A program made the translations under genes and the position numbers. Below the pieces are notes generated by a model, which saw only the letters and a program-made list of their open reading frames with translations, ran no database searches and had not been told where the DNA came from. This document shows, in pieces, positions 7,703-25,862 of a DNA stretch of 64,000 nt (its first letter is position 1; every line of letters starts with the position of its first letter). Source of the stretch: an uncultured Ramlibacter sp. (GTDB lineage: Bacteria; Pseudomonadota; Gammaproteobacteria; Burkholderiales; Burkholderiaceae_C). The stretch covers positions 62,001-126,000 of the forward strand of contig NZ_CAKZHQ010000022.1 in NCBI RefSeq assembly GCF_936925435.1. Reading direction: 5' to 3'.

Positions 7703-8630
7703 GCCGGCGCGGCCTGGCCCCTATCGTCTGCTCGATCAGGGCGGGGCCGTCGCTGAGCAGAAAGCTGCGGAAGGCCTGTGCCACCGGCGGCAGGCGCTTG
7801 GTGCGCCGGTGCACCACGTACCAGTGCAGCATCAGCGGGAAGCCCTGCACGTCCAGCACGGCCAGGCTGCCCTCTTGCAGCTCGCGGCCGATGGTGTGGG
7901 CCGACAGAAAGCTCAGCCCCATGCCGGCGATCACCGCCTGCTTGATGGTCTCGGTGCTCTTGATCTCCATGGCGATGTTCAGCCGCGCCATGTGGTCGCC
8001 GAAAGCGTCCTTCATCGAGTTCCAGGTGTCCGAGCCCTTCTCGCGCACCACGAAGGGCTCGCGCGCCAGCCGTGAGACCGGGATGCGCTTGCGGCCCGCC
8101 AGCGGATGGCCGGGCGGCGCGACCAGCACATAGGGGTGCGGCGCGAACGGCTGGTTCACGGTGTCCATGTCCAGCGGCGGGCGCACCATGATGGCCAGGT
8201 CGGTGAGGTTGTCGGTGAGTTGCTCGAGCAGTTCCTCGCGGTTGACCACCTTGAAGTTGAGCGTGACGCCCTCGTGGCGGCCGGCGAACTCCACCAGCAG
8301 CCGCGGCAGGAAGTAGTCGCCGGCGCTGATCACCGCCACGTTCAGGGCGCCGCCGGCGACGCCCTTGAACTGCGTCATGGTCTGCTCGACTTCCTTGAAC
8401 TGCTGGATGATGACCCGGCTGGCGTGCAGCATCTCGACGCCGGCCGCGGTCAGGTGGATCTTCTTGCCGAACTGCTCGAACAGTGCGATGCCGGCGTGGT
8501 CCTGCAGCTTCTTGACCTGGGTGGACACCGCCGGCTGCGTCAGGTGCAGTTCCTCGGCCGCGCGCGAGAAGCTCAGGTTGCGAGCCACCGCCTCGAACAC
8601 CTTGAGCTGGCGCAGCGTTGCGTTCTTCAT
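7686..8630 (-). CDS. LysR-family regulator (CbbR-like)
   Basis: A 314-residue LysR regulator. The N-terminal winged helix is clear: LRQLKVFEAVARNLSFSRAA, LHLTQPAVSTQVKKLQ and FEQFGKKIHLTAAG. The remaining two thirds form the effector domain. The N-terminal sequence is of the CbbR/CysB-like type with the Gln-Pro-Ala-Val-Ser-Thr-Gln recognition helix. It is transcribed away from an unknown small gene, a fumarylacetoacetase-family gene and a reductase gene; inverted repeats in the gap are the expected binding sites. Its effector is unknown. Confidence 0.9.
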   Translation of the reverse strand: MKNATLRQLKVFEAVARNLSFSRAAEELHLTQPAVSTQVKKLQDHAGIALFEQFGKKIHLTAAGVEMLHASRVIIQQFKEVEQTMTQFKGVAGGALNVAVISAGDYFLPRLLVEFAGRHEGVTLNFKVVNREELLEQLTDNLTDLAIMVRPPLDMDTVNQPFAPHPYVLVAPPGHPLAGRKRIPVSRLAREPFVVREKGSDTWNSMKDAFGDHMARLNIAMEIKSTETIKQAVIAGMGLSFLSAHTIGRELQEGSLAVLDVQGFPLMLHWYVVHRRTKRLPPVAQAFRSFLLSDGPALIEQTIGARPRRPTRRK

Positions 8631-9111: not shown

Positions 9112-9879
9112 ATGACCAGCCACTGGGTGCGCTTCATGGACGGCGGCACGCCGCGTTTCGGCACGGTCGAGGGCGACGCAGTGCGGGTCTGCGAAGGCGA
9201 CATGTTCGCCGGCGCCAGCCCCACCGACCGAATGCTGGCACTGGCCGGCCTGCAGCTGCTGGCGCCGGTGCAGCCCAGCAAGGTGCTGGCCCTGTGGAAC
9301 AACTTCCATGCGCTGGGCGAGAAGCTCAAGCTGGACGCCCCTGCCGAGCCCCTGTACCTGATCAAGTCGCCCAACTCCTATCTGGCGCCCGGCGGCGTCA
9401 TCCGCAAGCCCGCCTGTGATGGCAAGGTGGTCTTCGAAGGCGAGCTGGGCATCGTCATCGGCCGCACGGCCAGCCAGGTCAGCGAGCAGCGCGCGCTGGA
9501 GCACGTGTTCGGCTACACCTGCGCCAACGACGTGACGGTGGCCGACATCCTCAACCGCGACGCCTCGTTCGCCCAGTGGGTGCGCGCCAAAGGATTCGAC
9601 ACCTTCTGCCCCTTCGGCCCGGTGGTGGCCACCGGATTGGACCCGGCCCAACTGACAGTCAGAACCATCCTGAACGGCGATGTCCGGCAGGACTATCCCA
9701 TCAGCGACATGCGCTTTTCGGTGCAGCAACTGGTCAGCCTGATCTCCCAGGACATGACCCTGTACCCTGGCGACATCATCTTGTGTGGCACCTCCGTCGG
9801 CGTGGGGTCCATGAAACCGGGCAGCCTGGTCGAAGTCGAGATCGCCGGCATCGGCAAGCTGAGCAACCGGTTCGAATAG
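9112..9879 (+). CDS. Fumarylacetoacetate hydrolase (FAH) family protein
   Basis: A 255-residue enzyme of the FAH superfamily, which hydrolyses or isomerises C-C bonds of diketo-acids using a divalent metal. Metal-binding acids are in VVFEGELGIVIG and in FGYTCANDVTVADI, and the C-terminal LYPGDIILCGTSVGVG is typical. It is shorter than true fumarylacetoacetase and fits the 2-hydroxyhepta-2,4-diene-dioate isomerase/ureidoglycolate lyase-like group, but the substrate is not evident. It is in one unit with the preceding small gene and the following reductase. Confidence 0.85.
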   Translation: MTSHWVRFMDGGTPRFGTVEGDAVRVCEGDMFAGASPTDRMLALAGLQLLAPVQPSKVLALWNNFHALGEKLKLDAPAEPLYLIKSPNSYLAPGGVIRKPACDGKVVFEGELGIVIGRTASQVSEQRALEHVFGYTCANDVTVADILNRDASFAQWVRAKGFDTFCPFGPVVATGLDPAQLTVRTILNGDVRQDYPISDMRFSVQQLVSLISQDMTLYPGDIILCGTSVGVGSMKPGSLVEVEIAGIGKLSNRFE

Positions 9880-9902
9880 TTTTTCAACTTTGGAGAAGCG
9901 GT

Positions 9903-10910
9903 GTGAAGATAGCGATCATTGGCGCAGGCGCCATAGGAGGGTATGTGGGGGTGAAGCTGGCCCTGGCCGGGCAGGACGTCACCTTCATCGTGCGTGGTGA
10001 CAATCTGCAGGCCATCCGCCGCGATGGCATGAAGCTGGTCATGAACGACGGCACCGAGCACGTGGCCAAGGGTGTCAAGGCCACCAACGACTACACCGAG
10101 GCCGGCCCGCAGGACATGGTCATCCTGGCCATGAAGGCCCACCAGGTCGAGGCCGTGGCCAGGGACCTGCCCAAGCTGCTGGGTCCAGACACCACGGTGG
10201 TGACCATGCAAAACGGCATCCCCTTCTGGTATTTCCACAAGCACGGCGGGCCGTTCGACGGCTCGCAGGTCCACGCCGTGGACCCGTCCGGCCTGCTGGC
10301 CGAGCTGATCCCGCCGCGCCGCGTGATCGGCTGCGTGGTCTATCCGGCCTCCGAACTGGTCGCGCCCGGCGTGGTCAGGCACATCGAGGGCGACCGCTTC
10401 CCGGTGGGCGAGCTCGATGGCTCGCTCAGCGAGCGTGTCACGCGCGTTTCAGAGTGCTTCACCCAGGCCGGTTTCAAGGCGCCGGTGCTGGACGACATCC
10501 GCAGCGAGATCTGGCTCAAGCTCTGGGGCAACCTCACCTTCAACCCGATCAGCAGCCTGTCGCACTCCACCCTGGTGGACATCTGCCAGCATCCGCTGTC
10601 GCGCGCCCTGGCCGAGAACATGATGCGTGAGGCGCAGGACGTGGCACACAAGCTGGGCATCCAGTTTCGCGTCAGCCTGGAAAAGCGCATCGCCGGCGCC
10701 GAGAAGGTCGGCAAGCACAAGACCTCGATGCTGCAGGACATCGAAGCGGGCCGCGCGCCCGAGGTCGATGCCCTGGTCGGCTCGGTGGTGGAACTGGGCC
10801 GCCTGACCCAGACGCCGACGCCGCACATCGACACGGTGTATGCCCTGGTCAAGCTGCTGGCCAGCACCATGGCCAGCGAGCGCGGCCAGGTGCGCCTGCA
10901 GCCGGCCTGA
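9903..10910 (+). CDS. Ketopantoate reductase (PanE/ApbA) family dehydrogenase
   Basis: A 335-residue NADP-dependent 2-oxoacid reductase of the PanE/ApbA family. The nucleotide-binding GAGAIGGYVGVKLA is at the very N-terminus; the catalytic Lys/Asn/Asp region includes EIWLKLWGNLTFNPIS and KTSMLQDIEAGRAPEVDAL. The start is GTG at 9903, chosen because it places the Rossmann motif right at the N-terminus and has a TTTGGAGAA ribosome site. Behind the FAH gene and the LysR regulator it is more likely a catabolic 2-oxoacid reductase than the pantothenate pathway enzyme, but this is inference. Confidence 0.85.
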   Translation: MKIAIIGAGAIGGYVGVKLALAGQDVTFIVRGDNLQAIRRDGMKLVMNDGTEHVAKGVKATNDYTEAGPQDMVILAMKAHQVEAVARDLPKLLGPDTTVVTMQNGIPFWYFHKHGGPFDGSQVHAVDPSGLLAELIPPRRVIGCVVYPASELVAPGVVRHIEGDRFPVGELDGSLSERVTRVSECFTQAGFKAPVLDDIRSEIWLKLWGNLTFNPISSLSHSTLVDICQHPLSRALAENMMREAQDVAHKLGIQFRVSLEKRIAGAEKVGKHKTSMLQDIEAGRAPEVDALVGSVVELGRLTQTPTPHIDTVYALVKLLASTMASERGQVRLQPA

Positions 10911-10947
10911 TCAGCCCCCTGGCGGCGCAAGGCGCTGACCGCCAGCC

Positions 10948-11023
10948 TCAGTCACCGCCGGGCCGCCCTCAGGTGACTGAAGCCCCCTCGGGGGGCAGCG
11001 GAGCAAAGCGTAGCGTGGGGGCC
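10948..11023. repeat. Intergenic hairpin repeat between convergent genes (terminator-like)
   Basis: Two nested structures lie between convergent genes. TCAGTCACC (10948-10956) pairs with GGTGACTGA (10972-10980). Then GCCCCC (10982-10987) can pair with either of two GGGGGC copies (10991-10996 and 11017-11022), separated by a purine-rich AGCGGAGCAAAGCGTAGCG segment. From general knowledge, this GCCCCCTCGGGGGGCAGCG-type element recurs at gene ends in Comamonadaceae genomes. It could end transcription from either side. Confidence 0.6.
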
Positions 11024-11025
11024 AT

Positions 11026-11925
11026 TCAAGGGCTGGCGGTCAGCGCCTTTTTCATGGCCTGGAGGGCGGCGTCGTCCACCAGCCCGTAGTCGAAGTCCTT
11101 GCCCAGGTCCAGCGCCTTGGACAGCATCGGACTGGGCGTCTTCAGGCCGGCGAGCAGCGCCGCCGCCTTCTTCACCGCATCGGCCGGCGCCGCCGGGTGC
11201 GCGTACAGGCCGTAGCCCCAGCTCGGGTTGGAGGCCGGCACGATCACCAGCTGCGCCATGTGGATGCGCTCGTCCGTGCCGTAGTGGGTCTTCATGGTCG
11301 AGCCCTGGGCCGTCTGCAGCCGCGTGATCAGGCCCACCCAGCGGTCGGCCTGCCAGTGGAAGGCGGCCTTGGTCGGCAGATAGCTCTGGCCCAGGCCCTG
11401 CTGCGGCACCACCTCCACCACCGTGCCGCACAGGTTCTCGGCCTGCACCAGGGCGGTGGTCACACCGCTTTTCATGCCGTAGCAGTTGGTGGTCTTGAGC
11501 CTGGCCAGCACCTTGGCCCGCTCTTCGGGCGGCAGGCTCTTGAGTTCGACCGGCTTGCCGTCCTTGAGCTTGCCGACGTCGCCCAGAATCAGGATGGCCG
11601 ACTGGATGGGATCGATGTTGACCGCCACCGGCTTGTAGCCCGAGGCCAGTCCGACCACCGGGTTGCCGTAGACCCAGCAGGGCGGCGCCGGCTTCTTGAT
11701 GGCGGTCAAGACATCCTGCGTTTCCCGGATGTTGAGCACCGGAGCGGTCGACAGGCCGGTGGGCTTGATGAACTCGATCAGCTCGCGCAGCGCGCTCTCG
11801 GTCTGCGACGAGCCTTCGCCGCGGATGACCTGCGGATTGAGGTAGAGACCTCCCTCGCAGGACTGGGCCTGGACGGACAGGCCGGCAGCGGCCAGGCAGG
11901 CGAACAGCAACGGCTTCTTCATCAT
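11026..11925 (-). CDS. Orphan periplasmic binding protein (PhnD-like fold)
   Basis: A 299-residue exported protein with signal peptide MKKPLLFACLAAAGLSVQA followed by QSCEGG. The body looks like a PhnD-type (phosphate/phosphonate) periplasmic binding protein, e.g. NIRETQDVLTAIK and SAAILILGDVGKL-like strands, and it has four or more Cys residues suited to disulfides. The start at 11925 is the first of two adjacent ATGs after a GGAGA site; the second, at 11922, is also possible. No ABC permease or ATPase is nearby. It is divergent from the tripartite transporter and may share its regulator. Family call moderate; ligand unknown. Confidence 0.55.
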   Translation of the reverse strand: MMKKPLLFACLAAAGLSVQAQSCEGGLYLNPQVIRGEGSSQTESALRELIEFIKPTGLSTAPVLNIRETQDVLTAIKKPAPPCWVYGNPVVGLASGYKPVAVNIDPIQSAILILGDVGKLKDGKPVELKSLPPEERAKVLARLKTTNCYGMKSGVTTALVQAENLCGTVVEVVPQQGLGQSYLPTKAAFHWQADRWVGLITRLQTAQGSTMKTHYGTDERIHMAQLVIVPASNPSWGYGLYAHPAAPADAVKKAAALLAGLKTPSPMLSKALDLGKDFDYGLVDDAALQAMKKALTASP

Positions 11926-12236
11926 TGTCTCCAACGCTTTTGAATCTTCCGGCAATCGCTGCACACTCCGTCGCCACCGCCGGTCCAGCTGGAATCAGGA
12001 TACGTGGGGATACATTTTTTTCGTTAGGGGGATACGCTATCGCTTGACGGCGCGCAGTGAAAAGAGGCCTCAGGACAAACCCTAAAGCCCCCCGAGAATT
12101 GAGCAAACTTGATCACCGTCAAGAGTTTTTTGGCCCACTTGGGAAGACCATGTTGCCCGTGACGTCCCATCATTGGGACAGGCCCGGAGAAATACCGGAC
12201 CGCCAGCGAGATCAGCCAACACAGGAGACAACCGAA
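11926..12236. other. 311-base divergent intergenic region between the orphan binding protein and tctC
   Basis: No credible gene. It holds an FNR-like palindrome at 12109-12122 and a T-rich patch around 12011-12020. A short in-frame extension of tctC (from 12057) is rejected because it has no signal peptide and lies across the regulatory site. No convincing -10 box was found downstream of the palindrome. Confidence 0.6.
12109..12122. promoter_or_regulatory. Crp/Fnr-type operator upstream of the tripartite transporter
   Basis: TTGATCACCGTCAA has the TTGAY-N4-RTCAA form of Fnr-family sites. Its reverse complement, TTGACGGTGATCAA, differs at only two positions from the palindrome TTGACCGTGGTCAA before oxc. 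It lies 115 bases before the tctC start. The likely binder is the Crp/Fnr protein encoded at 15546-16154. Confidence 0.6.
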
Positions 12237-13262
12237 ATGAAAACCAGACTTGCACGCATCGGGAATGGATTGACCAAGGCCGCAGTCGGCGCGATCGCCG
12301 CGGCCGCCATGATGGCGACGGGCGCTGCCCACGCTGCCTGGGAGCCGACCAAGCCGGTCGAGTTCGTCGTCCCTGCCGGCACCGGCGGCGGCGCCGACCA
12401 GATGGCACGCCTGATCCAGGGCATCATCATCAAGCACAAGCTGATGAAGGAGTCGCTGGTTGTCGTCAACAAGTCCGGCGGCGCCGGCGCCGAAGGTTTC
12501 CTCTCGGTCAAGGAAGCCAAGGGCGATCCGCACAAGATCATCATCACGCTGTCGAACCTGTTCACCACCCCACTGGCCACCGGCGTGCCCTTCAACTGGC
12601 GCGACATGACGCCGGTGTCGATGATGGCGCTGGACCAGTTCGTGCTGTGGGTCAACGCCGAGAACCCCGCCAAGAACGCCAAGGACTTCTTTGCTGCCGT
12701 CAAGGCGCAGGGTCCGAGCAAGGCCAAGATGGGCGGCACCGGTTCCAAGCAGGAAGACCAGATCCTGACGGTGGGCATCGAGAAAGCCACCGGCACCAAG
12801 TTCATCTACATCCCCTTCAAAGGCGGTGGCGACGTGGCCGTGCAGCTGGTGGGCAAGCACGTCGATGCTTCCGTCAACAACCCGATCGAAGCCGTCGCCC
12901 AGTGGCGTGCCGGCCAGCTGCGCGCCCTGTGCGTGTTCGACGACAAGCGCATGCCTTACAAGACCAAGGTCACCGACACGATGTCCTGGGGCGATATCCC
13001 CACCTGCAAGGAGGCCGGCGTGTCGACCGACTACGTGATGCTGCGCGGCATCTTCGCAGCGCCTGGCATCAGCAAGGACCAGCTCGAGTACTACGGCACC
13101 CTGCTCAAGAAGGTGCGTGAGACCCCGGAGTGGAAGGAATACATGGAAAAGGGCGCCTTCAACACGACCAGCATGTCCGGCGACGAGTTCGCCAAGTGGC
13201 TGGGCAGCGCCGAGCAGATGCACCGCGAGCTCATGAAGGAAGCCGGCTTCATCGCCAAGTGA
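12237..13262 (+). CDS. Tripartite tricarboxylate transporter substrate-binding protein (TctC/Bug)
   Basis: A 341-residue periplasmic binding protein of the Bug/TctC family. A long signal peptide ends at GAAHA-AWEP, then come the family signatures KPVEFVVPAGTGGGADQMAR, VVNKSGGAGAEGF and the ligand-loop region FIYIPFKGGGDVAV. ATG 12237 has an AGGAGA ribosome site and gives a complete signal peptide. Unlike the other two Bug genes in the window, it is followed directly by tctB and tctA, so it belongs to a full transporter. Placement before oxc/frc and a shared operator type suggest oxalate or a related dicarboxylate as ligand (inference). Confidence 0.88.
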   Translation: MKTRLARIGNGLTKAAVGAIAAAAMMATGAAHAAWEPTKPVEFVVPAGTGGGADQMARLIQGIIIKHKLMKESLVVVNKSGGAGAEGFLSVKEAKGDPHKIIITLSNLFTTPLATGVPFNWRDMTPVSMMALDQFVLWVNAENPAKNAKDFFAAVKAQGPSKAKMGGTGSKQEDQILTVGIEKATGTKFIYIPFKGGGDVAVQLVGKHVDASVNNPIEAVAQWRAGQLRALCVFDDKRMPYKTKVTDTMSWGDIPTCKEAGVSTDYVMLRGIFAAPGISKDQLEYYGTLLKKVRETPEWKEYMEKGAFNTTSMSGDEFAKWLGSAEQMHRELMKEAGFIAK

Positions 13263-13268
13263 TCCAGT

Positions 13269-13290
13269 GCGGGGCCCGCTCGGGCCCCGC
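13269..13290 (+). other. Intercistronic hairpin between tctC and tctB
   Basis: GCGGGGCCCG and CGGGCCCCGC are perfect 10-base arms around a two-base CT centre, six bases after the tctC stop. There is no T-run. Such a structure can protect the upstream message from 3' decay and give more binding protein than membrane subunits, which is usual in binding-protein transporters. Confidence 0.6.
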
Positions 13291-13378
13291 CTCTTCTCCG
13301 GGACCGGCCGCCGCATCGGCCCCGTCATCTCTCCCCGCCCTGAACGGGCATTCTCAAAAAATACAGCAGGAGTTCCTG

Positions 13379-13888
13379 ATGGAAACCGAATCGGGCGTCG
13401 AGCATCGCACTGGCGTCGCCACCTACGTCGTTGAAGTCGTCGTTGCCCTTCTTATCGTGGTGCTGGGCCTGGTGGTCCTGCAGGGCAGCTGGAAGCTGGG
13501 TTCGGGCTGGACCAGCGATGGCCCAGGCGCCGGCTATTTCCCCTTCTACATCGGCATCATTCTGTGCATCTCCGGTGCCGGCGTGGCCTTCCAGGCGCTC
13601 AAGAACAAGAACATGGAAGTGTTCGTCGACAACGAGCAGCTCAAGCGCGTCCTGTCGGTGCTGCTGCCCGCCCTGGTCTATGTGCTGTTCATCCAGCTGA
13701 TCGGCATCTATGTCGCATCGGTCGTGTACATCGCGCTGTTCATGGTCATCCTGGGCAAGTACTCGCCCATCAAGAGCGTGATCACCGCCATTGCCGTGAA
13801 TGCGCTGTTCTTCATGATGTTCGAGGTCTGGTTCAAGGTGCCCCTGTTCAAGGGCATGTGGGACCCGATCAGCTTCCTGGGCTACTGA
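13379..13888 (+). CDS. Tripartite tricarboxylate transporter small membrane subunit TctB
   Basis: A 169-residue membrane protein with four hydrophobic segments, the size and shape of TctB. The segment SDGPGAGYFPFYIGIILCIS after the first membrane helix is typical of the family. ATG 13379 has an AGGAG site seven bases upstream. It is separated from tctC by a strong hairpin and is 41 bases before tctA. With TctA it forms the inner-membrane part of a proton- or sodium-driven importer. Confidence 0.9.
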   Translation: METESGVEHRTGVATYVVEVVVALLIVVLGLVVLQGSWKLGSGWTSDGPGAGYFPFYIGIILCISGAGVAFQALKNKNMEVFVDNEQLKRVLSVLLPALVYVLFIQLIGIYVASVVYIALFMVILGKYSPIKSVITAIAVNALFFMMFEVWFKVPLFKGMWDPISFLGY

Positions 13889-13929
13889 TTCTTCGCCCGC
13901 CTGCCTCAAAACCTATATAGACAAATGCC

Positions 13930-15459
13930 ATGGACGAACTAAGCGCGCTCTTTCACGGATTCAGCGTCATCCTGACGCCAATGAACATCTTGCTGATGTT
14001 CGTCGGCATCATCCTGGGGGTGCTGATCGGGGTGCTGCCCGGCCTGGGCGGCGCCAACGGTGTGGCCATCCTGCTGCCCCTGACCTTCAGCATGTCGCCG
14101 ACCTCGGCCATCATCATGCTGTCGTGCATCTACTGGGGCGCCCTGTTCGGCGGCGCCATCACCTCCATCCTGTTCAACATCCCCGGCGAACCCTGGTCGG
14201 TGGCGACAACCTTCGACGGCTACCCCATGGCCCAGAAGGGGCAGGCCGGCGGCGCCCTGACGGCGGCGTTCACCTCGTCGTTCATCGGCGCCTTCGTGGC
14301 CGTGCTGATGATCACCTTCCTGGCGCCCATGGTCGCCAAGTTCGCGCTGAAATTCGGCCCGCCTGAGTTCTTCGCGGTCTACCTTCTGACCTTCTGCAGC
14401 TTCGTGGGCATGGGCAAGGGCTCGCCGTTCAAGATCCTGGCCTCGATGACGCTGGGCTTCGCCCTGGCGGCTGTCGGCATGGACACGGTGACGGGCCAGC
14501 TGCGCCTGACCTTCGGCATCACCGAGCTGATGCGCGGCTTCGACTTCCTGATCGGCGTGATCGGCCTGTTCGGCATCGGCGAAATCCTGCAGTCGATGGA
14601 AGAAGGCCTGGAGTTCTCCGGCAAGAGCGCCAAGATCAGCCCCAAGGTGGTGCTCGAGACCTGGAAGAAGCTGCCGCAGTACTGGATGACCTCGATCCGC
14701 AGCTCGCTGATCGGCATCTGGATGGGCATCACCCCCGGCGGCGCCACCCCGGCTTCGTTCATGAGCTACGGCCTGGCCAAGAAAATGTCCAAGAACGGCG
14801 CCAACTTCGGCAAGGGCGAGATCGAGGGCGTCATTGCTCCCGAAACTGCGGCCCACGCCGCCGGCACCGCCGCCCTGCTGCCCATGCTGGCCCTGGGCAT
14901 CCCGGGTTCGCCGACCGCTGCCGTGCTGCTGGGCGGCCTGCTGATCTGGGGCCTGCAACCCGGCCCGCTGCTGTTCGTCGAGCAGAAGGACTTCGTCTGG
15001 GGCCTGATCGCCTCGATGTACCTGGGCAACCTGGTCGGCCTGATCGTGGTGCTGACCACCGTGCCGCTGTTCGCCTCGATCCTGCGCATCCCCTTCTCCA
15101 TCATCGCCCCGGTGATCGTGGTGATCTGCGCGATCGGCGCCTACACCGTGCACAACGCCATGCTCGACATCTGGCTGATGATGCTGTTCGGCGTGGTCGG
15201 CTACCTGTTCAAGAAGCTGGACTACCCGCTGGCGCCCCTGGTGCTGGCCCTGGTGCTGGGCGACAAGGCCGAGGACTCGTTCCGCCAGGCCATGCTGGTC
15301 TCGCAGGGCGAGCTGTCCATCATGTGGTCCAACCCCCTGGTCGGCGGCATCACCAGCCTGGCCCTGGTCCTGCTGCTGTGGCCGCTGATCTCCAGGCTAA
15401 TCGCCAAGGTCCGCCCGCCCAAGGTCAATGAGTTCGCCGAAGAGCAACCGGTGGACTGA
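13930..15459 (+). CDS. Tripartite tricarboxylate transporter large membrane subunit TctA
   Basis: A 509-residue, roughly twelve-segment permease. Strong family signatures: GVLIGVLPGLGGANGVAILLP and SCIYWGALFGGAITSILFNIP near the start, GMDTVTGQLRLTFG, and the repeat motif GIWMGITPGGATPASFMSYG with PETAAHAAGTAALLPMLALGIP. It is the transport channel of the system. The ribosome site before ATG 13930 is weak, so lower translation than tctC is expected. A T-rich hairpin terminator follows at 15477. Confidence 0.95.
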   Translation: MDELSALFHGFSVILTPMNILLMFVGIILGVLIGVLPGLGGANGVAILLPLTFSMSPTSAIIMLSCIYWGALFGGAITSILFNIPGEPWSVATTFDGYPMAQKGQAGGALTAAFTSSFIGAFVAVLMITFLAPMVAKFALKFGPPEFFAVYLLTFCSFVGMGKGSPFKILASMTLGFALAAVGMDTVTGQLRLTFGITELMRGFDFLIGVIGLFGIGEILQSMEEGLEFSGKSAKISPKVVLETWKKLPQYWMTSIRSSLIGIWMGITPGGATPASFMSYGLAKKMSKNGANFGKGEIEGVIAPETAAHAAGTAALLPMLALGIPGSPTAAVLLGGLLIWGLQPGPLLFVEQKDFVWGLIASMYLGNLVGLIVVLTTVPLFASILRIPFSIIAPVIVVICAIGAYTVHNAMLDIWLMMLFGVVGYLFKKLDYPLAPLVLALVLGDKAEDSFRQAMLVSQGELSIMWSNPLVGGITSLALVLLLWPLISRLIAKVRPPKVNEFAEEQPVD

Positions 15460-15476
15460 GCCTCACAGCACCCAAC

Positions 15477-15504
15477 AAAAAAGCGGCCCTCGGGCCGCTT
15501 TTTT
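15477..15504. terminator. Bidirectional rho-independent terminator between tctA and the Crp/Fnr gene
   Basis: An A-run, GCGGCC, short CTCG loop, GGCCGC and a T-run form a symmetric terminator that works in either direction. A second hairpin (ACAAGGGC 15513-15520 with GCCCTTGT 15531-15538) lies just beyond. Together they separate the convergent tctA and regulator genes. Confidence 0.85.
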
Positions 15505-15545
15505 ACTGAAGGACAAGGGCGGCAAGGGCGGCCCTTGTTTTGTCC

Positions 15546-16154
15546 TTAAATCTTTCCGCGCTGCTTGAGCCGGCTGAGCGTCTCGGCCGACAGGTTCAGG
15601 TAGGAGGCCAGCTCCTTTTTCGGGATGCGCTCGAACAGCTCGGGGTGCTTGCGCAAAAAGCGCTTGACCCGGCCCGGCGCGTCCAGCAGGTGCAGCGTGA
15701 TGGTGTGGGCCATGATTTCGCTCATCAGGAACATCACGTCGCGCTCGAACAGCTGCTTGATCTCGCTGTGCCGGTCCAGGAAAGCGACCCATTCGGGCAG
15801 CGACAGCTTGGCCACTCTGGCCTTGGTCACGCTGACGATGCTGTAGGGCGTGGGCTGGCCCAGGCGCCAGGCGGCGTAGCTGGTCTCCATCTCGCGCTCG
15901 TCGGCGAAGCGCAGGATCATTTCCTTGGCTTCCTGGTTGCTCACCACCCGCTTGAGGATGCCGTCCAGGATGAAGTACTGCTCCATCTCGTGGACGCCCT
16001 GGTTGAGCAGAAAGTCCCCCTTCTGGCAGTCCACGATGACCAGATGGGTCTCCAGTTCGGCCGCCTGCTCGGCCGTCATCCCCTTGAGAACGCCGTTCTG
16101 CGCCAGCTGGACGCGAATCACGTTTTTCTCGGGATGGTTTTGGAGTGGCTGCAT
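15546..16154 (-). CDS. Crp/Fnr-family transcriptional regulator of the oxalate genes (predicted)
   Basis: A 202-residue regulator: an N-terminal cyclic-nucleotide-binding-like beta-roll ([20 protein letters not shown]), a long dimer helix, and a C-terminal helix-turn-helix [20 protein letters not shown]. The recognition helix ETLSR matches that of Fnr (ETISR), which reads TTGAT half sites. It has a single Cys, so it cannot hold an Fnr-type iron-sulfur cluster. The protein stops right after the recognition helix and lacks most of the usual wing. It is divergent from oxc with a 16-base palindrome between them; it is the likely activator of oxc and tctCBA. Its signal is unknown. Confidence 0.85.
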
Positions 16155-16216
16155 GGGTGCGGAAGGCTGGGAGATACCCGGGAAACACGGCTTGTGGCCG
16201 CCCGAATACTACGAAA

Positions 16217-16232
16217 ATTGACCGTGGTCAAT
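16217..16232. promoter_or_regulatory. Crp/Fnr-type operator upstream of oxc, 16-base perfect palindrome
   Basis: ATTGACCGTGGTCAAT is a perfect palindrome with TTGAC half sites. Its centre (16224.5) is 29.5 bases from the first base of the TATGAT -10 box, exactly the distance found when a Crp/Fnr site is centred at -41.5. It lies between the divergent regulator gene and oxc. Confidence 0.75.
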
Positions 16233-16253
16233 GGTGGAACTCGAATCGATTCC

Positions 16254-16259
16254 TATGAT
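16254..16259 (+). promoter_or_regulatory. Predicted -10 box of the oxc promoter
   Basis: TATGAT, five of six matches to TATAAT. There is no good -35 hexamer; the palindrome takes its place, as in class II activator-dependent promoters. The predicted transcription start is near 16266. Confidence 0.6.
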
Positions 16260-16361
16260 ACCTCGGCGATGCAATGCCCCGCCCCGAGCCCTGGGGGAGG
16301 CGGCCGATCCCGGCCGCGTTGCTCGACTTTTACAGCAGTCAAACGAAGAGACATTTCATCC

Positions 16362-18092
16362 ATGACCAATGAAACGCAAACCGGCGAGATGACCGACGGC
16401 TTCAACCTCGTCATCGACGCCCTCAAGCTCAACGGCATCGACAACATCTATGCCCTGCCCGGCATCCCGATCACCGACCTGACACGCAAGGCCCAGACCG
16501 CCGGCATGCGCGTCATTTCCTTCCGCCACGAGCAGCACGCCGGCAACGCCGCCGCCGCAGCAGGCTTCCTGACGCAAAAGCCCGGCATCTGCCTGACGGT
16601 GTCGGCGCCCGGCTTCCTCAACGGCCTGACGGCCCTGGCCAACGCCACGACCAACTGCTTTCCCATGATCCTGATCTCCGGCTCTTCCGAGCGCGAGATC
16701 GTCGACCTGCAGCAGGGCGACTATGAAGAGATGGACCAGCTGGCCATCGCCAAGCCCCTGTGCAAGGCTGCTTTCCGCGTGCTGCACGCCGAAGACATCG
16801 GTGTGGGCGTCGCCCGCGCCATCCGTTCCGCCCTGTCCGGCCGCCCCGGCGGCGTCTACCTGGACCTGCCGGCCAAGCTGTTCTCGCAGGCCATGGACGC
16901 CGTGGCCGGCAAGGCCTCGCTGATCAAGGTCGTCGATCCCGCGCCCAAGCAGATTCCCGCCCCCGAGGCCGTGCAGCGCGCCGTCAACCTGCTCAAGAGC
17001 GCCAAGAAGCCCCTGATTCTGCTGGGCAAGGGCGCCGCCTACGCCCAGTGCGATGCTGAAGTCCGCGCCCTGGTCGAAAAGACCGGCATCCCCTACCTGC
17101 CCATGTCCATGGCCAAGGGCCTGCTGCCCGACAACCACGCCCAGTCCGCCTCCGCCGCCCGCTCCTACGTGCTGGCCGAAGCCGACGTCGTGGTCCTGGT
17201 CGGCGCGCGCCTGAACTGGCTGCTGTCGCACGGCAAGGGCAAGACCTGGGGCAGCAAGGACGCCAAGGAAGCCGGTGGCCAGCAGTTCATCCAGATCGAC
17301 ATCTCGCCGACCGAGGCTGACAGCAACGTGGCCATCGCCGCGCCGCTGGTGGGCGACATCGGCTCCTGCGTCTCGGCCCTGCTGGCCGGCCTGGGCTCGA
17401 ACATCGCCAAGCCGCCGGCGGAGTGGACCGGTGCGGTGTCCGAAAAGAAGGACAAGAACCTGACCAAGATGGCCGAGACCCTGGCCAAGACGCCCTCGCC
17501 CATGAACTTCCACAGCGCGCTCAACGTGGTGCGCAACCAGATCAAGGCCCATCCGGACGCCGTCCTCGTCAACGAAGGCGCCAACACACTGGACTTCGCG
17601 CGCAGCATCGTCGACATGTACGAGCCGCGCAAGCGCCTGGACGTGGGCACCTGGGGCATCATGGGCATCGGCATGGGCTTTGCCATCGCCGCCGCCGTGG
17701 AAACCGGCAAGCCGGTGATCGCCGTCGAGGGCGACAGCGCCTTCGGTTTCTCCGGCATGGAAGTCGAGACCATCTGCCGCTACAACCTGCCGGTGTGCGT
17801 GGTGGTCTTCAACAACAACGGCATCTACCGCGGCACCGACGTCAACGGCAGCGGCGGTACCGATGTGGCGCCCACGGTGTTCGTCAAGAATGCACGTTAT
17901 GAAATGATGATGCAGGCCTTCGGCGGCGTCGGTGTGGTGGCCAACACCGCAGCCGAACTCGACAAGGCCATGACCGAAGCCATCGCTTCGGGCAAGCCCA
18001 CGCTGATCAACGCGATCATCGATGAAACCGCAGGCACCGAGAGCGGGCGCATCACCAGCCTGAACCCGACCAGCGCTGCCAACAAGAAATAA
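16362..18092 (+). CDS. oxc: Oxalyl-CoA decarboxylase
   Basis: A 576-residue thiamine-diphosphate enzyme that converts oxalyl-CoA to formyl-CoA and CO2. It aligns by eye along its full length with the Oxalobacter formigenes enzyme: [21 protein letters not shown] with the catalytic Glu57, [39 protein letters not shown] and [10 protein letters not shown]. The ThDP/Mg motif runs from GDS (457-459) to NNN (484-486). The conserved [15 protein letters not shown] is in the ADP/CoA region. The start ATG at 16362 gives the family N-terminus. It is the first gene downstream of the Crp/Fnr operator and is followed 26 bases later by frc. Confidence 0.97.
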
Positions 18093-18118: not shown

Positions 18119-19390
18119 ATGAGCAACAAACCCCTCGAAGGCATCAAGATCATCGACTTCACGCACGTGCAAGCCGGTCCTGCATGCACGCAGCTGCTGG
18201 CCTGGTTCGGCGCCGACGTGATCAAGGTCGAGCGTCCCGGCTCCGGTGACGTCACCCGCACCCAGTTGCAGGACATCCCGAACGTGGACGCCCTGTACTT
18301 CACGATGCTCAACAGCAACAAGCGCTCGCTGACGCTGGACACCAAGAAACCCCTGGGCAAGGAAGTGCTGGAAAAGCTGATCCGCGAATCCGATGTGATG
18401 GTCGAGAACTTCGGCCCCGGCGCGCTCGACCGCATGGGCTTCACCTGGGAACGCATCCAGGAACTCAACCCCAAGATGATCCTGGCTTCGGTCAAGGGTT
18501 TTTCCGACGGCCACCACTACGAAGACCTGAAGGTCTATGAAAACGTGGCCCAGTGCGCCGGCGGCGCCGCCTCCACCACCGGCTGGTGGAAGGGCGAGAA
18601 CTCGCAGCCCACCATCTCCGCGGCCGCCCTGGGCGACAGCAACACCGGCATGCACCTGGCCATCGGCATCCTGACGGCCATCATCGGCCGCCAGCAGACC
18701 GGCAAGGGCCAGAAGGTCGCCGTCTCCATGCAGGACAGCGTGCTCAACCTGTGCCGCGTCAAGCTGCGCGACCAGCAGCGCCTGGAAAAGCTCGGCTACC
18801 TGGAAGAGTATCCCCAGTACCCGCACGAGATGGATGCGTTCAAGGACAAGGTGACGCCGCGCGGCGGCAATGCCGGCGGCGGCGGCCAACCGGGCTGGAT
18901 TCTCAAGTGCAAGGGCCATGAGACGGACCCCAACGCCTACATCTATTTCACGGTGCAGGGCCACGCCTGGGCACCGATCTGCGATGCCATCGGCAAGCCC
19001 GAGTGGAAGACCGACCCGCTGTACATGACGGCCAAGGCCCGCCAGCCGCACATCAACGACATCTTCGCCACCATCGAAGACTGGCTCAAGGACAAGACCA
19101 AGTTCGAGGCCGTCGACGTGCTGCGCAAGTTCGACATCCCCTGCGCACCTGTGCTGTCGATGAAGGAAATCCTGGTCGACAAGTCGCTGATCGCGTCCGG
19201 CACCATCGCCGAAGTCAAGCACAAGACCCGCGGCAGCTACTGGACGGTGGGCAGCCCGATCAAGTTCTCCGACATGAAGCCCGAGATCACCGGTTCCCCC
19301 CTGCTGGGCGAGCACTCCGATGAAGTGCTGGCACAACTGGGCTACAGCAAGGAACAGATCGCCGACATGCACGCCAAAGAGGTGATCTGA
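18119..19390 (+). CDS. frc: Formyl-CoA:oxalate CoA-transferase (first copy)
   Basis: A 423-residue class III CoA-transferase that moves CoA from formyl-CoA to oxalate, supplying oxalyl-CoA to Oxc and freeing formate. The N-terminus [20 protein letters not shown], the catalytic Asp173 in [10 protein letters not shown], the glycine loop [19 protein letters not shown] and the C-terminal [17 protein letters not shown] are those of O. formigenes Frc and E. coli YfdW. It has a few extra residues before the catalytic loop ([10 protein letters not shown]) compared with the second copy. A TAGGAG site precedes ATG. A strong terminator follows, so oxc-frc is probably one transcript. Confidence 0.95.
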
Positions 19391-19487: not shown

Positions 19488-19931
19488 ATGCAATCGACAG
19501 TGAATTACCAACAGTTGGTCGAGGCCGTCGGCGATGCCGTCATGGCCGCCGACGCCAGCGGCGCCATCAACCTGTGGAACCCCGCCTGCGAGCGGATGTT
19601 CGGCTACACCGAAGCCGAGGCGCTGGGCAAGTCGCTGGACATCATCATTCCCCAGCGCCAGCAACAGCGCCACTGGGACGGCTATGCCCACACCATGGCC
19701 TCGGGCAAGACCAAGTACGGCACAACCGTGCTGCGGGTGCCGGCCGTGCACAAGGACGGCCACACCCTGTCCATCGCCTTTTCCGTCGCCCTGCTCTTCA
19801 CGCCGGAGGGCAAGGTGGCCTCCATCGTCGCCGTGGTGCGCGACGAGAGCGCCAAGTTCGCCGAGGAGCGGGCCCTGCGCAAACGCCTGACCGAGTTGGA
19901 AACCCAGGCTGCCGGAGTCAAAACTGCATGA
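19488..19931 (+). CDS. PAS-domain protein without an output domain
   Basis: A 147-residue soluble protein that is essentially one PAS domain (residues about 8-125: LVEAVGDAVMAADASGAINL, NPACERMFGYTEAEALGKSL, GHTLSIAFSVALLF) followed by a short charged helix (EERALRKRLTELETQ). There is no kinase, cyclase or DNA-binding part. PAS domains bind small ligands, haem or flavin, or mediate protein contacts. It sits between two frc genes, so it may sense a metabolite or redox state for oxalate use, perhaps by partnering another regulator. Function is inferred only from position. Confidence 0.8.
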   Translation: MQSTVNYQQLVEAVGDAVMAADASGAINLWNPACERMFGYTEAEALGKSLDIIIPQRQQQRHWDGYAHTMASGKTKYGTTVLRVPAVHKDGHTLSIAFSVALLFTPEGKVASIVAVVRDESAKFAEERALRKRLTELETQAAGVKTA

Positions 19932-20006: not shown

Positions 20007-21254
20007 ATGAGCAAAGCCTTAGACGGGGTCCGCATTCTCGATTTCACGCACGTCCAGTCCGGGCCGACCTGCACCCAGCTGCTGGCCTGGTTCGGCGCCG
20101 ACGTGATCAAGGTGGAGCGCGCCGGTGAAGGCGACGCCACGCGCGGCCAGCTGCGCGACATCCCCGGTGTCGACAGCCTGTACTTCACCATGCTCAACCA
20201 CAACAAGCGCTCGATCACGCTGGACACCAAGAAGCCCAAGGGCAAGGAGGTGCTGGACGCGCTGATCAAGACCTGCGACGTGCTGGTGGAGAACTTCGCG
20301 CCGGGCGCCCTGGACCGCATGGGCATCACCTGGGAGCACATCCAGAAGCTCAATCCGCGCATGATCGTCGCCTCGGTCAAGGGCTTCGGCCCCGGCCCCT
20401 ACGAGGACTGCAAGGTCTACGAGAACGTGGCGCAATGCGCCGGCGGCTCGGCCTCGACCACCGGCTTCGACGACGGCCCGCCCATGGTCACCGGCGCCCA
20501 GATCGGCGACAGCGGCACCGGCTTGCACCTGGCCCTGGGCATCATGGCCGCCCTGTACCAGCGCAACACCACCGGCCGCGGCCAGAAGGTGCTGGCGCCC
20601 ATGCAGGACGCCGTGCTCAACCTGTGCCGCGTCAAGCTGCGCGACCAGCAGCGCCTGGAGCGCACCGGCACCATGCACGAGTACCCGCAGTACCCGGACG
20701 GCAAGTTCGGCGAGGCCGTGCCGCGCGCCGGCAATGCCTCGGGCGGCGGCCAACCCGGCGCCATCCTCAAGTGCAAGGGCTGGGAGACCGATCCCAACGC
20801 CTACATCTACTTCATCACCCAGGGGGCCGTCTGGCCGGCGGTGTGCAAGGTGATCGGCGAGGAAGGCTGGATCGACGACGAGGCCTATGCCACGCCGCAG
20901 GCCCGATTGCTGCACCTCAAGCCCATCTTCGCGCGCATCGAGCAGTGGACCATGACCAAGACCAAGTTCGAGGCCATGGACATCCTCAACAAGTTCGACA
21001 TCCCCTGCGGCCCCATCCTGTCGATGAAGGAAATCGCCGAAGAGCCCGCATTGCGCGAGACCGGCACCATCGTCGAGGTCGACCACCCCACCCGCGGCAA
21101 GTACCTCACCGTGGGCAACCCGATCAAGCTGTCGGACAGTCCGACCGACGTCACGCGCTCGCCCCTGCTGGGCGAGCACACGGACGACGTCCTCCAACAA
21201 CTGGGCTACGGCGCCCAGGACATCGCCCAGTTGCGCGCCGAGCGTGTGATCTGA
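20007..21254 (+). CDS. frc: Formyl-CoA:oxalate CoA-transferase (second copy)
   Basis: A 415-residue paralogue of the first Frc, roughly two-thirds to three-quarters identical by eye. Catalytic Asp168 is in [10 protein letters not shown], and the glycine loop is [17 protein letters not shown], differing from the GGGG form of copy 1 (first Gly replaced by Ser). [20 protein letters not shown] aligns without the extra residues of copy 1, making it closer in length to E. coli YfdW (416). AGCAGGA before ATG is the ribosome site. It probably shares a transcript with the formate dehydrogenase genes 56 bases downstream. It may prefer a different acyl-CoA donor or acceptor. Confidence 0.9.
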
Positions 21255-21310: not shown

Positions 21311-23008
<1,698 letters not shown>

Positions 23009-23021
23009 AGGGCTTCCGACC

Positions 23022-25862
23022 ATGAACGCAATCACCCGACAAGAACTGGCCCAGCTCGACACGCCCACCGTCAGCTTCAGCCTCAACGGCCGTGAAGTGA
23101 CAGGCCGCGCCACCGAAACCATCCTGGAAGTGGCCAAGCGCGAGGGCATCGAGGTGCCCCACCTCTGCTACAAGGAAGGCATGGAGGCCGTGGGCAACTG
23201 CCGCTCCTGCATGGTGGAGATCAACGGCGAGCGCGTGCTCGCCCCCTCCTGCTGCCGCGCCCCCACGGCCGGCATGAAGGTCACGACCGACAGCGAGCGC
23301 GCCGTCGCCGCCCAGAAGATGGTGCTGGAGCTGCTGCTGTCGGACATGCCCGAGAAGGACTACACCCGCCACAACGAAGTCGACCAGTGGGCCGCAAAGA
23401 TCGGTGTGGGCAAGCCCCGCTTCGAGGCGCGCGCACCTGTCCAGTACGACTACTCCCACCCGGCCATCGCCGTCAACCTGGACGCCTGCATCCAGTGCAC
23501 GCGCTGCCTGCGCGCCTGCCGCGACGAACAGGTCAACGACGTGATCGGCCTGGCCTTCCGCGGCGACCAGGCCAAAATCGTCTTCGACATGGACGACCCC
23601 ATGGGCGCGTCCACCTGCGTGGCCTGCGGCGAATGCGTGCAGGCCTGCCCCACCGGCGCCCTGATGCCGGCGCGCGACGCGGCCCTGGCCGTGCCGGACA
23701 AGCAGGTCGAGTCGGTCTGCCCCTATTGCGGCGTCGGCTGCCAGCTGACCTACAACGTCAAGGACGACAAGATCCTGTTCGTCGAGGGCCGTGACGGCCC
23801 GGCCAACCACGGCCGCCTGTGCGTCAAGGGCCGCTACGGCTTCGACTACGCCCACCACCCGCAGCGTCTGAAGGTGCCGCTGATCCGCCGCGCCGGCGTG
23901 CCCAAGACGGGCGACTTCATCATGGATCCGGACCGGGTGATGGACGTCTTCCGTGAAGCCACCTGGGAAGAGGCGCTGGAGTTCGCCGGCGGCAAGCTGG
24001 CCGCCATCCGCGACCAGCACGGCAAGAAGTCGCTGGCCGGCTTCGGCTCGGCCAAGGGCAGCAACGAAGAGGCCTACCTGTTCCAGAAGCTGGTGCGCAC
24101 CGGCTTTGGCAGCAACAACGTCGACCACTGCACCCGCCTGTGCCACGCCTCCTCGGTCGTGGCCCTGCTCGAGGGTATTGGTTCGGGGGCAGTCTCCAAC
24201 CCGGTGATGGACGTGACCAAGGCCGACGTGGTCGTCATCATCGGCGCCAACCCCACGGTGAACCACCCCGTGGCCGCCACCTGGATCAAGAACGCGGTGC
24301 AAAACGGCACCAAGCTGATCGTCATGGACCCGCGCCGCTCGGACCTGACCCGCATGGCCCACCGCCATCTGCAGTTCAAGCCCGACACCGACGTGCCCAT
24401 GCTCAACGCGATGATGAACGTCATCGTCACCGAAGGCCTGGTCGACAAGGAGTTCATCGAGAGCCGCACCATCGGCTACGAGGAGCTGCGCAAGAACGTC
24501 GAGGGCTACACGCCCGAGCTGATGGCCCCCATCTGCGGCATCGACGCCGACACCCTGCGCTACGTGGCCCGTTTGTTCGCCACCTCCAAGGGCTCGATGA
24601 TCCTGTGGGGCATGGGCGTGTCGCAGCACGTGCACGGCACGGACAACGCGCGCTGCCTGATCGCCCTGTCGCTGATGACAGGCCAGATCGGCCGTCCCGG
24701 CACCGGCCTGCATCCCCTGCGCGGCCAGAACAACGTGCAGGGCGCTTCCGACGCCGGCCTCATCCCCATGATGCTGCCGGACTACCAGCACGTCTCCAAG
24801 CCCGAGGTGCGCGCCAGTTTCGAGAAGGCCTGGAAGCTCTCGCCCGGCACGCTGGACGACCAAGTCGGCCTGACGGTGGTCGAGGTGATGCACGCCATCA
24901 AGAAGGGCGGCATCAAGGGCATGTACGTGCAGGGCGAGAACCCCGCCATGTCGGACCCGGATGCCAACCACGCCCGTGAAGCCCTGGCGGCGCTGGACCA
25001 CCTGGTGGTGCAGGACATCTTCCTGACCGAGACCGCCTACCTGGCCGACGTCATCCTGCCGGCTTCCGCCTTCCCCGAAAAGGACGGCAGCTTCACCAAC
25101 ACCGACCGCCTGGTGCAGATGGGCCGCAAGGCCATCAACCCGCCCGGCGACGCCCGGCAAGACCTGTGGATCATCCAGGAGATCGCCAATCGCATGGGCT
25201 GCGGCTGGACCTACAAGCATGTGAGCGAAGTCTTTGACGAGATGCGCCACACCATGCCCAGCATCGGCGGCATCACCTGGGACAGGCTGGAGCGCGAGCA
25301 TTCGGTCACCTACCCCTGCATGAAGGAAGGCGACCCGGGCGACTCGGTGGTCTTCGTCGACGAGTTCCCGCGAGAAGGCGGCCGCGCCCGCTTCGTGCCG
25401 GCCGACATCATCCCGGCCAACGAGCGGCCCGACACCGAATACCCCCTGGTGCTGATCACCGGCCGCCAGCTGGAACACTGGCACACCGGCAGCATGACGC
25501 GCCGCGCCACGGTGCTGGATGCGCTGGAACCCGATCCGGTCGCCCTGGTCCATCCGCTGGACCTGGCCGCCATGGGCGGCAAGCCGGGCGACGTGATCAC
25601 CATCGAGTCGCGCCGCGGCGAGGTGGTGCTCTATGCGCGCGCCGACGAGAACTCGCCGCGCGGCGCGATCTTCGTGCCCTTCTGCTACTACGAGGCGGCC
25701 ATCAACCGGCTGACCAACGCGGCGCTGGACCCGTTTGCCAAGATTCCGGAGTTCAAGTACTGCGCCATCCGCGCCACGCTCGGCGGCCAGCTGCAGGAGC
25801 AGGATAGCTACGGCGGCGGCCAGGCCCTGAAGAACGCCGTCGTGGCGGCTGCAGCGGCCTGA
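23022..25862 (+). CDS. NAD-dependent formate dehydrogenase, catalytic alpha subunit
   Basis: A 946-residue molybdenum- or tungsten-bis(guanylate) formate dehydrogenase. In order: plant-type [2Fe-2S] (Cys49, 60, 63, 77), two ferredoxin [4Fe-4S] sites (CIQCTRCLRAC 156-166; CVACGECVQAC 199-209), the [4Fe-4S] near the cofactor (Cys233, 236, 240, 267), and the active-site Cys374-His375 in TRLCHASSV, aligned with the Sec-His of E. coli FdhF. The C-terminal 100 residues are the molydopterin dinucleotide-binding domain. It oxidises the formate released by Frc. The start is 13 bases after the beta-subunit stop with GAAGGG as ribosome site. No fdsC/fdhD-type sulfur-insertion gene is in the window. Confidence 0.95.
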   Translation: MNAITRQELAQLDTPTVSFSLNGREVTGRATETILEVAKREGIEVPHLCYKEGMEAVGNCRSCMVEINGERVLAPSCCRAPTAGMKVTTDSERAVAAQKMVLELLLSDMPEKDYTRHNEVDQWAAKIGVGKPRFEARAPVQYDYSHPAIAVNLDACIQCTRCLRACRDEQVNDVIGLAFRGDQAKIVFDMDDPMGASTCVACGECVQACPTGALMPARDAALAVPDKQVESVCPYCGVGCQLTYNVKDDKILFVEGRDGPANHGRLCVKGRYGFDYAHHPQRLKVPLIRRAGVPKTGDFIMDPDRVMDVFREATWEEALEFAGGKLAAIRDQHGKKSLAGFGSAKGSNEEAYLFQKLVRTGFGSNNVDHCTRLCHASSVVALLEGIGSGAVSNPVMDVTKADVVVIIGANPTVNHPVAATWIKNAVQNGTKLIVMDPRRSDLTRMAHRHLQFKPDTDVPMLNAMMNVIVTEGLVDKEFIESRTIGYEELRKNVEGYTPELMAPICGIDADTLRYVARLFATSKGSMILWGMGVSQHVHGTDNARCLIALSLMTGQIGRPGTGLHPLRGQNNVQGASDAGLIPMMLPDYQHVSKPEVRASFEKAWKLSPGTLDDQVGLTVVEVMHAIKKGGIKGMYVQGENPAMSDPDANHAREALAALDHLVVQDIFLTETAYLADVILPASAFPEKDGSFTNTDRLVQMGRKAINPPGDARQDLWIIQEIANRMGCGWTYKHVSEVFDEMRHTMPSIGGITWDRLEREHSVTYPCMKEGDPGDSVVFVDEFPREGGRARFVPADIIPANERPDTEYPLVLITGRQLEHWHTGSMTRRATVLDALEPDPVALVHPLDLAAMGGKPGDVITIESRRGEVVLYARADENSPRGAIFVPFCYYEAAINRLTNAALDPFAKIPEFKYCAIRATLGGQLQEQDSYGGGQALKNAVVAAAAA

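Follow-up and report, generated by a model that had tools for sequence, protein, structure and literature searches.

A Crp/Fnr-superfamily regulator and a conserved palindromic operator predicted to link a tripartite transporter to oxalate degradation in Ramlibacter and other Burkholderiales

Within the Crp/Fnr superfamily, HbaR and CprK are catabolic activators that lie beside catabolic genes and act through a palindrome, while Fnr and its relative Anr use an E-SR recognition helix to bind a TTGA-N6-TCAA operator and activate from the class II position. Bacterial oxalate degradation is known from other Burkholderiales. According to the excerpts available to us, Burkholderia phytofirmans PsJN has a cluster of a putative oxalate/formate antiporter with oxc (oxalyl-CoA decarboxylase) and frc (formyl-CoA transferase) (PMC3886118), and Cupriavidus necator requires frc-oxc for growth on oxalate and has near these genes a PanE-type enzyme (ApbA2) for the oxalyl-CoA/glyoxylate step (PMC7486775). 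The excerpts of five papers (PMC9476978, PMC7486775, PMC3886118, PMC10192776 and PMC4764995) name no oxc regulator, and the listings returned by our literature searches hold neither a Crp/Fnr-type regulator of the oxc/frc pathway nor a tripartite tricarboxylate transporter (TTT) tied to oxalate. Here we analyze a 64,000-nucleotide stretch from an uncultured Ramlibacter sp. (contig NZ_CAKZHQ010000022.1, positions 62,001 to 126,000; hereafter the window), in which a gene for a Crp/Fnr-type regulator (15546..16154, - strand) lies between the TTT genes tctC-tctB-tctA and a divergent run of oxalate-degradation genes that begins with oxc (16362..18092, + strand; TIGR03254 above cut-off). Palindromic sites precede both oxc and tctC; they are conserved in relatives, keep a fixed distance to a -10 element and co-occur with the regulator.

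The locus resembles the Fnr/Anr systems in its TTGA-N6-TCAA operator, the E-SR helix of its regulator and the class II position of the site, but differs in that the regulator has no conserved cysteine and ends just past the recognition helix, in a half-site that is mostly TTGACC, and in having at least two predicted local target operons. With HbaR and CprK, as these are generally described rather than by sequence, it shares a family member placed next to catabolic genes and predicted to activate these by way of a palindrome; the pathway here is that of oxalate. The PsJN cluster, in the available part of its description, likewise joins oxc and frc with a transporter, which is an antiporter there and a TTT system here. 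In C. necator, frc-oxc similarly lies near a PanE-type CoA-acylating glyoxylate dehydrogenase, whereas the excerpts of its description contain no operon regulator. We predict that the system works like a catabolic Crp/Fnr activator whose regulator belongs to a known superfamily and is new for oxalate catabolism in the literature searched.

A pattern scan of the window recovered both palindromes at the coordinates given by an earlier note made from the sequence alone: the oxc operator TTGACCGTGGTCAA (16218-16231) and the tctC operator TTGATCACCGTCAA (12109-12122), both palindromic and without assigned strand. The reverse complement of the latter is identical to the former at 12 of 14 positions. 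The centre of the oxc site (16224.5) lies 29.5 bases from the first base of a TATGAT -10 hexamer (16254-16259, + strand), so the class II geometry put forward in that note is arithmetically right, and this spacing predicts a site centre at -41.5 and a transcript start near 16266. By computation, the promoter thus has the layout of class II promoters: the site lies around -41.5, a -10 is present and a good -35 is absent. The symmetry had been overstated: the 16-mer ATTGACCGTGGTCAAT, described as a perfect palindrome, is symmetric at 14 of its 16 positions, with two 7-bp arms around a GT centre. At the predicted tctC operator the hexamer at +29.5 is AGACCA, which is not -10-like, and a weak -10-like GACCAT, unmentioned in that note, stands at +30.5 from the operator centre (12146-12151, + strand; predicted start near 12158). 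The pattern TTGAY-N4-RTCAA occurs three times in the window, where shuffles predict 0.07. The third match (11696-11709) was rejected as a regulon member because it falls within a coding sequence (11026-11928, - strand) and also because none of the regions upstream of panE (0/29) or fah (0/21) in related loci carries a site.

To assess conservation we used the best 80 of 125 relatives of the regulator locus (74-86% identity; hereafter the named relatives), which come from Polaromonas, Ramlibacter, Caenimonas, Curvibacter, Hylemonella, Herminiimonas, Oxalicibacterium, Lacisediminimonas, Rhodoferax and others named at a higher rank only. Two of these (L095 and L111) have no oxc in the fetched stretch; in the remaining 78 the oxc-regulator gap always contains an exact TTGAN6TCAA (78/78), and the aligned sites read AAAA-TTGACCGNGGTCAA. 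A tctC gene with some upstream sequence was found in 68 named loci, and 60 of these have an exact site within 350 nucleotides (nt) upstream; the eight others include one (L069) whose contig offers merely 135 nt of upstream sequence. The fifth position of the half-site is C in all 78 oxc sites and in 58 of the 60 tctC sites. Control regions from the same loci were empty upstream of tctB (0/70), frc1 (0/67) and the PAS-domain gene (0/27), as well as of fah and panE, while a few sites were seen upstream of fdsB (3/41) and frc2 (5/67). These loci together span 1.43 Mb and contain 204 exact sites, 149 at the two expected places and 55 elsewhere; a control palindrome of the same composition, AGTTN6AACT, occurs five times. 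Conservation of the palindromes in related oxalate loci, on which the earlier note had staked its proposal, thus holds.

The promoter geometry is conserved along with the sites. Scoring a -10-like hexamer loosely as nAnnnT, with its first base at +29.5 or +30.5 relative to the centre of the site, we found it at all of the oxc sites (48 + 30 = 78/78; shuffles 0.12) and at nearly all of the tctC sites (40 + 17 = 57/60; shuffles 0.13), though many of the tctC hexamers are poor relative to TATAAT (mean 2.1 of 6 at +29.5). No enrichment of a -35 was detected at tctC, with a mean of 2.20 of 6 matches versus 2.50 in shuffles and four or more matches in 2/60.

We also examined the co-occurrence of regulator, oxc and site in samples of 299 genomes from the family, 399 from the order and 229 from the class. 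In the family sample the regulator is present in 50 genomes, oxc in 51 and both in 49, the exceptions being the regulator alone in G291 (58% complete) and oxc alone in G049 and G052. The corresponding numbers for the order sample are 76, 75 and 67, while in the class sample the window's own genome alone had a regulator (E 1e-25) or an oxc (E 1e-150). We read 400 nt upstream of the 75 oxc genes of the order, leaving out G618 and G439, where oxc ends at the contig end: an exact site precedes oxc in 61/65 genomes with the regulator and in 0/8 without it (shuffles 0.005). The Fisher p of 4e-8 for this association is optimistic, as the genomes are related; since, in addition, the layout differs in lineages that lack the regulator, the co-occurrences are not independent events. 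All but one of the 61 sites (the exception is G300) have the class II -10 spacing. Among the eight order genomes with oxc and regulator on separate contigs, six are assessable, and the site is kept in four of these (G300, G306, G354 and G609, not in G349 and G474). In G197, 0.68 Mb separates oxc from the regulator, yet a site precedes a tctC-tctB-tctA-oxc run. Conversely, no site was found in a 10-kb stretch of the regulator-less G049 or in the 400 nt upstream of tctC in the regulator-less G607 and G683.

The regulator itself is a protein of 202 residues whose recognition helix reads ETLSR, as had been claimed. It scores above the cut-off of a single family, PF00027 (28.8 vs 27.5). Its structure model (pLDDT, the predicted local distance difference test, 91.6) has strands between residues 39 and 118, a long helix at 130-157 and helices at 179-185 and 190-198, that is, the cyclic nucleotide-binding type of beta roll, dimerization helix and C-terminal helix-turn-helix (HTH) that define the Crp/Fnr fold. 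Foldseek searches with the model gave CRP and GlxR chains as best matches, and the first 22 also included chains of DNR and FNR. A sequence-profile comparison with the PDB ranked 3dn7 first, a regulatory protein from Cytophaga hutchinsonii, above CRP chains and, further down, DNR. The profile PF13545 (HTH_Crp_2) did not match the regulator, whose locus is absent from the 22 matches to that family; this winged helix is typical of the superfamily and not universal in it. The chain stops four residues past the modeled recognition helix (window 15546-15560 encodes its end), and the stop comes at the same length in 77/80 named relatives, the three others measuring 199, 199 and 204 residues, counted from where the match begins; an end at residue 202 implies that the usual C-terminal wing is missing. 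In an alignment of 44 sequences chosen from the available regulators, E191, T192, S194 and R195 are invariant (44/44). The only cysteine (residue 43) is present in 29/44 and there is no invariant cysteine column; thus, the four cysteines of a [4Fe-4S] cluster are lacking, which argues against an Fnr-type Fe-S center. The score against the CRP equivalog PRK11753 is 21.2, far below its cut-off of 266. Judged by sequence and modeled fold, the regulator is hence a member of the superfamily that is neither Fnr nor CRP. Its E-SR helix and the TTGA-N6-TCAA operator together fit Fnr-type recognition, and predict binding.

The notion of one regulator linking transporter and oxalate enzymes, first raised in the earlier note, is supported by the site conservation, the spacing and the regulator-site co-occurrence. 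We consider it highly probable that the regulator is a dedicated, non-Fnr class II activator of the Crp/Fnr superfamily acting on the oxc and tct units, with TctABC likely importing oxalate. Its dimer would bind TTGACC-N2-GGTCAA-type palindromes centered at about -41.5/-42.5, presumably in response to an oxalate-derived effector, and would activate at least two transcription units. The first would comprise oxc-frc1-PAS-frc2 and probably also the formate dehydrogenase genes; the second would be tctC-tctB-tctA. TctABC would most likely bring in oxalate, which Frc and Oxc would convert to formate and CO2, and formate dehydrogenase would then oxidize formate with a gain of NADH. That the regulator activates rather than represses, and that it acts alone, is likewise a prediction.

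Several observations weigh against this proposal. In the window itself, one half of the tctC site reads TTGAT and the -10 is poor, six of the 68 named tctC loci lack an exact site within 900 nt, and in L083 the site is at -564. In three further loci, of the variant type described below (G428, G346 and G389), a -10 at the class II spacing is missing from the tctC site. Four genomes (G409, G432, G474 and G349) have the regulator and oxc without an exact site within 400 nt of the latter. In the opposite direction, G052, where no regulator was found, has sites at oxc and at a gene of the OxlT (oxalate/formate antiporter) family, in a fragmented assembly with oxc near a contig end and with genus-mates (G168 and G246) that have the regulator. 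The regulator-less G584 is one of the eight genomes without an oxc site; upstream of its oxc, a partial match to tctC is preceded by TTGACCAAGCTCAA at a distance of 284 nt. The operon layout differs in the lineages without the regulator. Finally, the oxc promoters score somewhat above shuffles for a -35 (2.94 vs 2.50 of 6), with four or more matches in 23/78 as against 0.13 of shuffles.

A first alternative is that tctABC imports another acid and is a mere neighbor, the shared site then reflecting co-regulation under some other signal. TTT systems have many substrates, and an OxlT-family gene is also present in L133 and in 7/71 of the named loci that have tct. On the other hand, the tctC operator and its spacing match those of oxc, and no protein of the window genome reaches the OxlT cut-off: the best score against the equivalog TIGR04259 is 67.6 bits versus the 335 required. 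The loci without tct, defined as those whose fetched stretch contains no tctA at more than 60% identity, are also informative. There are nine such named loci, of which L063 was set aside as its stretch ends 611 nt after the regulator. Seven of the eight assessable ones have an OxlT-family gene downstream of the regulator, detected by tblastn above 45% in L046, L091, L094, L095 and L110, and by reading open reading frames in L086 and L109, whose products both pass the OxlT cut-off; the profile scan covered four of these seven genes. In L046 and L095 just 3.1 and 6.8 kb follow the regulator, so tct may lie beyond (the OxlT gene of L095 is about 4.8 kb from the regulator), and L068 gave no OxlT-family match. 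At an equal tblastn threshold the gene is present in 5/8 loci without tct versus 7/71 with it, which suggests that TctABC and OxlT are commonly, not strictly, alternatives. An exact palindrome lies within 450 nt upstream of 11 of the 28 OxlT-family matches in the loci searched. Given the lack of OxlT in the window genome and its presence where tct is missing, TctABC is probably the oxalate importer of this organism, and we regard import of another acid as unlikely.

A second alternative casts the regulator as a repressor of oxc, tctC or itself, which an oxalate-derived ligand would release from DNA. The site overlaps the -35 region, and the -35 matches at the oxc promoters noted above would suit such a role. 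On the regulator side, the edge of the site is a median of 62 nt (20-105; 78 loci) from the start codon with no class II -10 spacing, so that autoregulation, if any, is more likely repression. However, two unrelated promoters keep the -10 at a constant distance from the site and tctC shows no -35 enrichment, which fits an activator, as a repressor needs no such spacing. We therefore regard repression as the governing mode at oxc and tctC as rather improbable, and keep activation as the preferred reading.

A third alternative is that the palindromes belong to the ordinary oxygen-sensing Fnr, or are shared between it and the local regulator, such that oxalate degradation answers to oxygen. The own genome (4.49 Mb, 57 contigs) does encode a separate cysteine-rich Fnr with clustered cysteines and an ETISR helix (G000:C3:198142-198831), along with several other Crp-type proteins, and contains 21 TTGAY-N4-RTCAA sites, including the three of the window, versus 7 of a reversed-pattern control. 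Several of those outside the window precede genes for a flavin mononucleotide (FMN)-dependent dehydrogenase, a fatty acid desaturase, a rhodanese, cytochrome-oxidase subunit I, a P-type ATPase/UspA pair, a DEAD helicase and TerC, and may answer to the local regulator, to Fnr or to neither of them. Those near fnr, by the cytochrome-oxidase, ATPase/UspA and desaturase genes, look Fnr-like, and some have a -10-like hexamer at +29.5; the desaturase gene beside fnr has TTGACCGAGATCAA with GACAAT at that distance. Of the nine site-gene pairs read, five have nAnnnT at +29.5, while the dehydrogenase site, TTGACACGGGTCAA (L136:3001-3014, 73 nt before the first ATG), has no -10 at the class II spacing. 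With an ETISR Fnr present, cross-talk is possible at the tctC site of the window, one half of which is TTGAT. The earlier note had the regulator itself bind TTGAT like Fnr: the Fnr-type TTGA-N6-TCAA site and helix stand, whereas the final T needs correcting, the fifth position being C in nearly all sites of the relatives. An Fnr homologue was matched in 10/10 genomes searched, comprising nine without the regulator and the own genome (the G584 match is partial; cysteines were examined in the own-genome Fnr only). In these nine the oxc site is nonetheless absent (0/8 within 400 nt and none in the 10-kb G049 stretch), so the site tracks this regulator and not Fnr. Fnr as sole owner of the sites was accordingly rejected. 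Wherever oxc was within the stretch (78 named loci), the regulator gene also adjoins the site, and the C of all 78 oxc sites departs from the Fnr half-site. Taken together, these results make a role for Fnr at the oxalate operators improbable and favor the dedicated regulator.

It is scarcely conceivable that the palindromes are chance, or a functionless by-product of common descent in a short intergenic stretch, for even though the loci all come from one order, by names and kinship labels, the oxc-regulator gap varies from 92 to 636 nt while the 14-mer and the -10 spacing persist, and the oxc site is never seen without the regulator in the eight order genomes concerned as against 0.5% in shuffles.

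Nine genomes of the order have the regulator and no Oxc at the threshold used. In seven of these (not G581 and G685) an enzyme of the thiamine diphosphate (ThDP) class, 24-27% identical to Oxc, adjoins the regulator, and the regulator locus of G197 likewise has one, with its canonical oxc elsewhere. These genes are at L156:8103-9866, L157:5584-7281, L158:4703-6400, L159:6500-8218, L160:4842-6533, L161:6152-7843, L162:8707-10410 and L130:8115-9866. They are accompanied by CoA-transferase genes, and the exact palindrome with nAnnnT at the class II spacing precedes the ThDP gene in 8/8 (in G378 it is the second of a pair of sites). The frc1, PAS and frc2 products that flank the enzyme in G305 are 82%, 69% and 90% identical to those of the window. 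Three of the enzymes were scanned and fell below the family cut-offs shown, with PRK05858 ('acetolactate synthase') and 2-hydroxyacyl-CoA lyase as the nearest models. The simplest reading is that the distant enzyme is a non-orthologous oxalyl-CoA decarboxylase, a candidate second family. We advance only tentatively the wider idea of a Crp/Fnr oxalate sensor across the Burkholderiales, with its own ligand pocket (marked by invariant MILRF, T-YAAW-L and P residues) and a modular regulon that combines TctABC or OxlT with Oxc or the distant enzyme; if this were true, a TTT system would be a primary oxalate importer and a second, unrecognized Oxc family would exist. The conserved operator in turn predicts the regulator, the transcript starts and an unrecognized oxalate importer in many Burkholderiales, and could be used to find missing pathway genes.

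Diverged paralogues of the regulator (40-44% identity) were seen at L133:13819-14415, L134:5704-6291 and L135:5494-6081, near an OxlT-family gene in L133 and L134 and with a palindrome upstream in L133 and L135. G609 has three regulator paralogues (51-59% identity) on different contigs (L172, L173 and L174).

The remaining genes of the window complete the picture. Products of tctC (12237..13262; the periplasmic receptor, PF03401), tctB (13379..13888; PF07331) and tctA (13930..15459; PF01970), all on the + strand, score above their family cut-offs, and a full TTT is thus encoded. Downstream of oxc on the + strand are frc1 (18119..19390) and a second formyl-CoA transferase gene, frc2 (20007..21254), both above the TIGR03253 cut-off, with a small stand-alone PAS-domain protein between them (19488..19931). 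These are followed by a Nuo51-like NADH-binding subunit, probably of the formate dehydrogenase (21311..23008), and the formate dehydrogenase alpha subunit (23022..25862; TIGR01591 above cut-off). A PanE/ApbA-family reductase, assigned by family membership only, is encoded at 9927..10910 (+ strand); it might be the CoA-acylating glyoxylate dehydrogenase in the branch that assimilates oxalyl-CoA and, by analogy, may play the part of the C. necator enzyme. The protein of 11026-11928 (- strand) has no Pfam match; with the FAH- and PanE-family genes (window 9112-11928) it accompanies tct in part of the relatives. The PAS gene passed the filter of the upstream-region survey in 27 named loci. A GC-rich inverted repeat flanked by runs of A and T, noticed by eye between tctA and the convergent regulator gene (15477-15506), is probably a bidirectional terminator. 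A LysR gene is present at 7686-8630.

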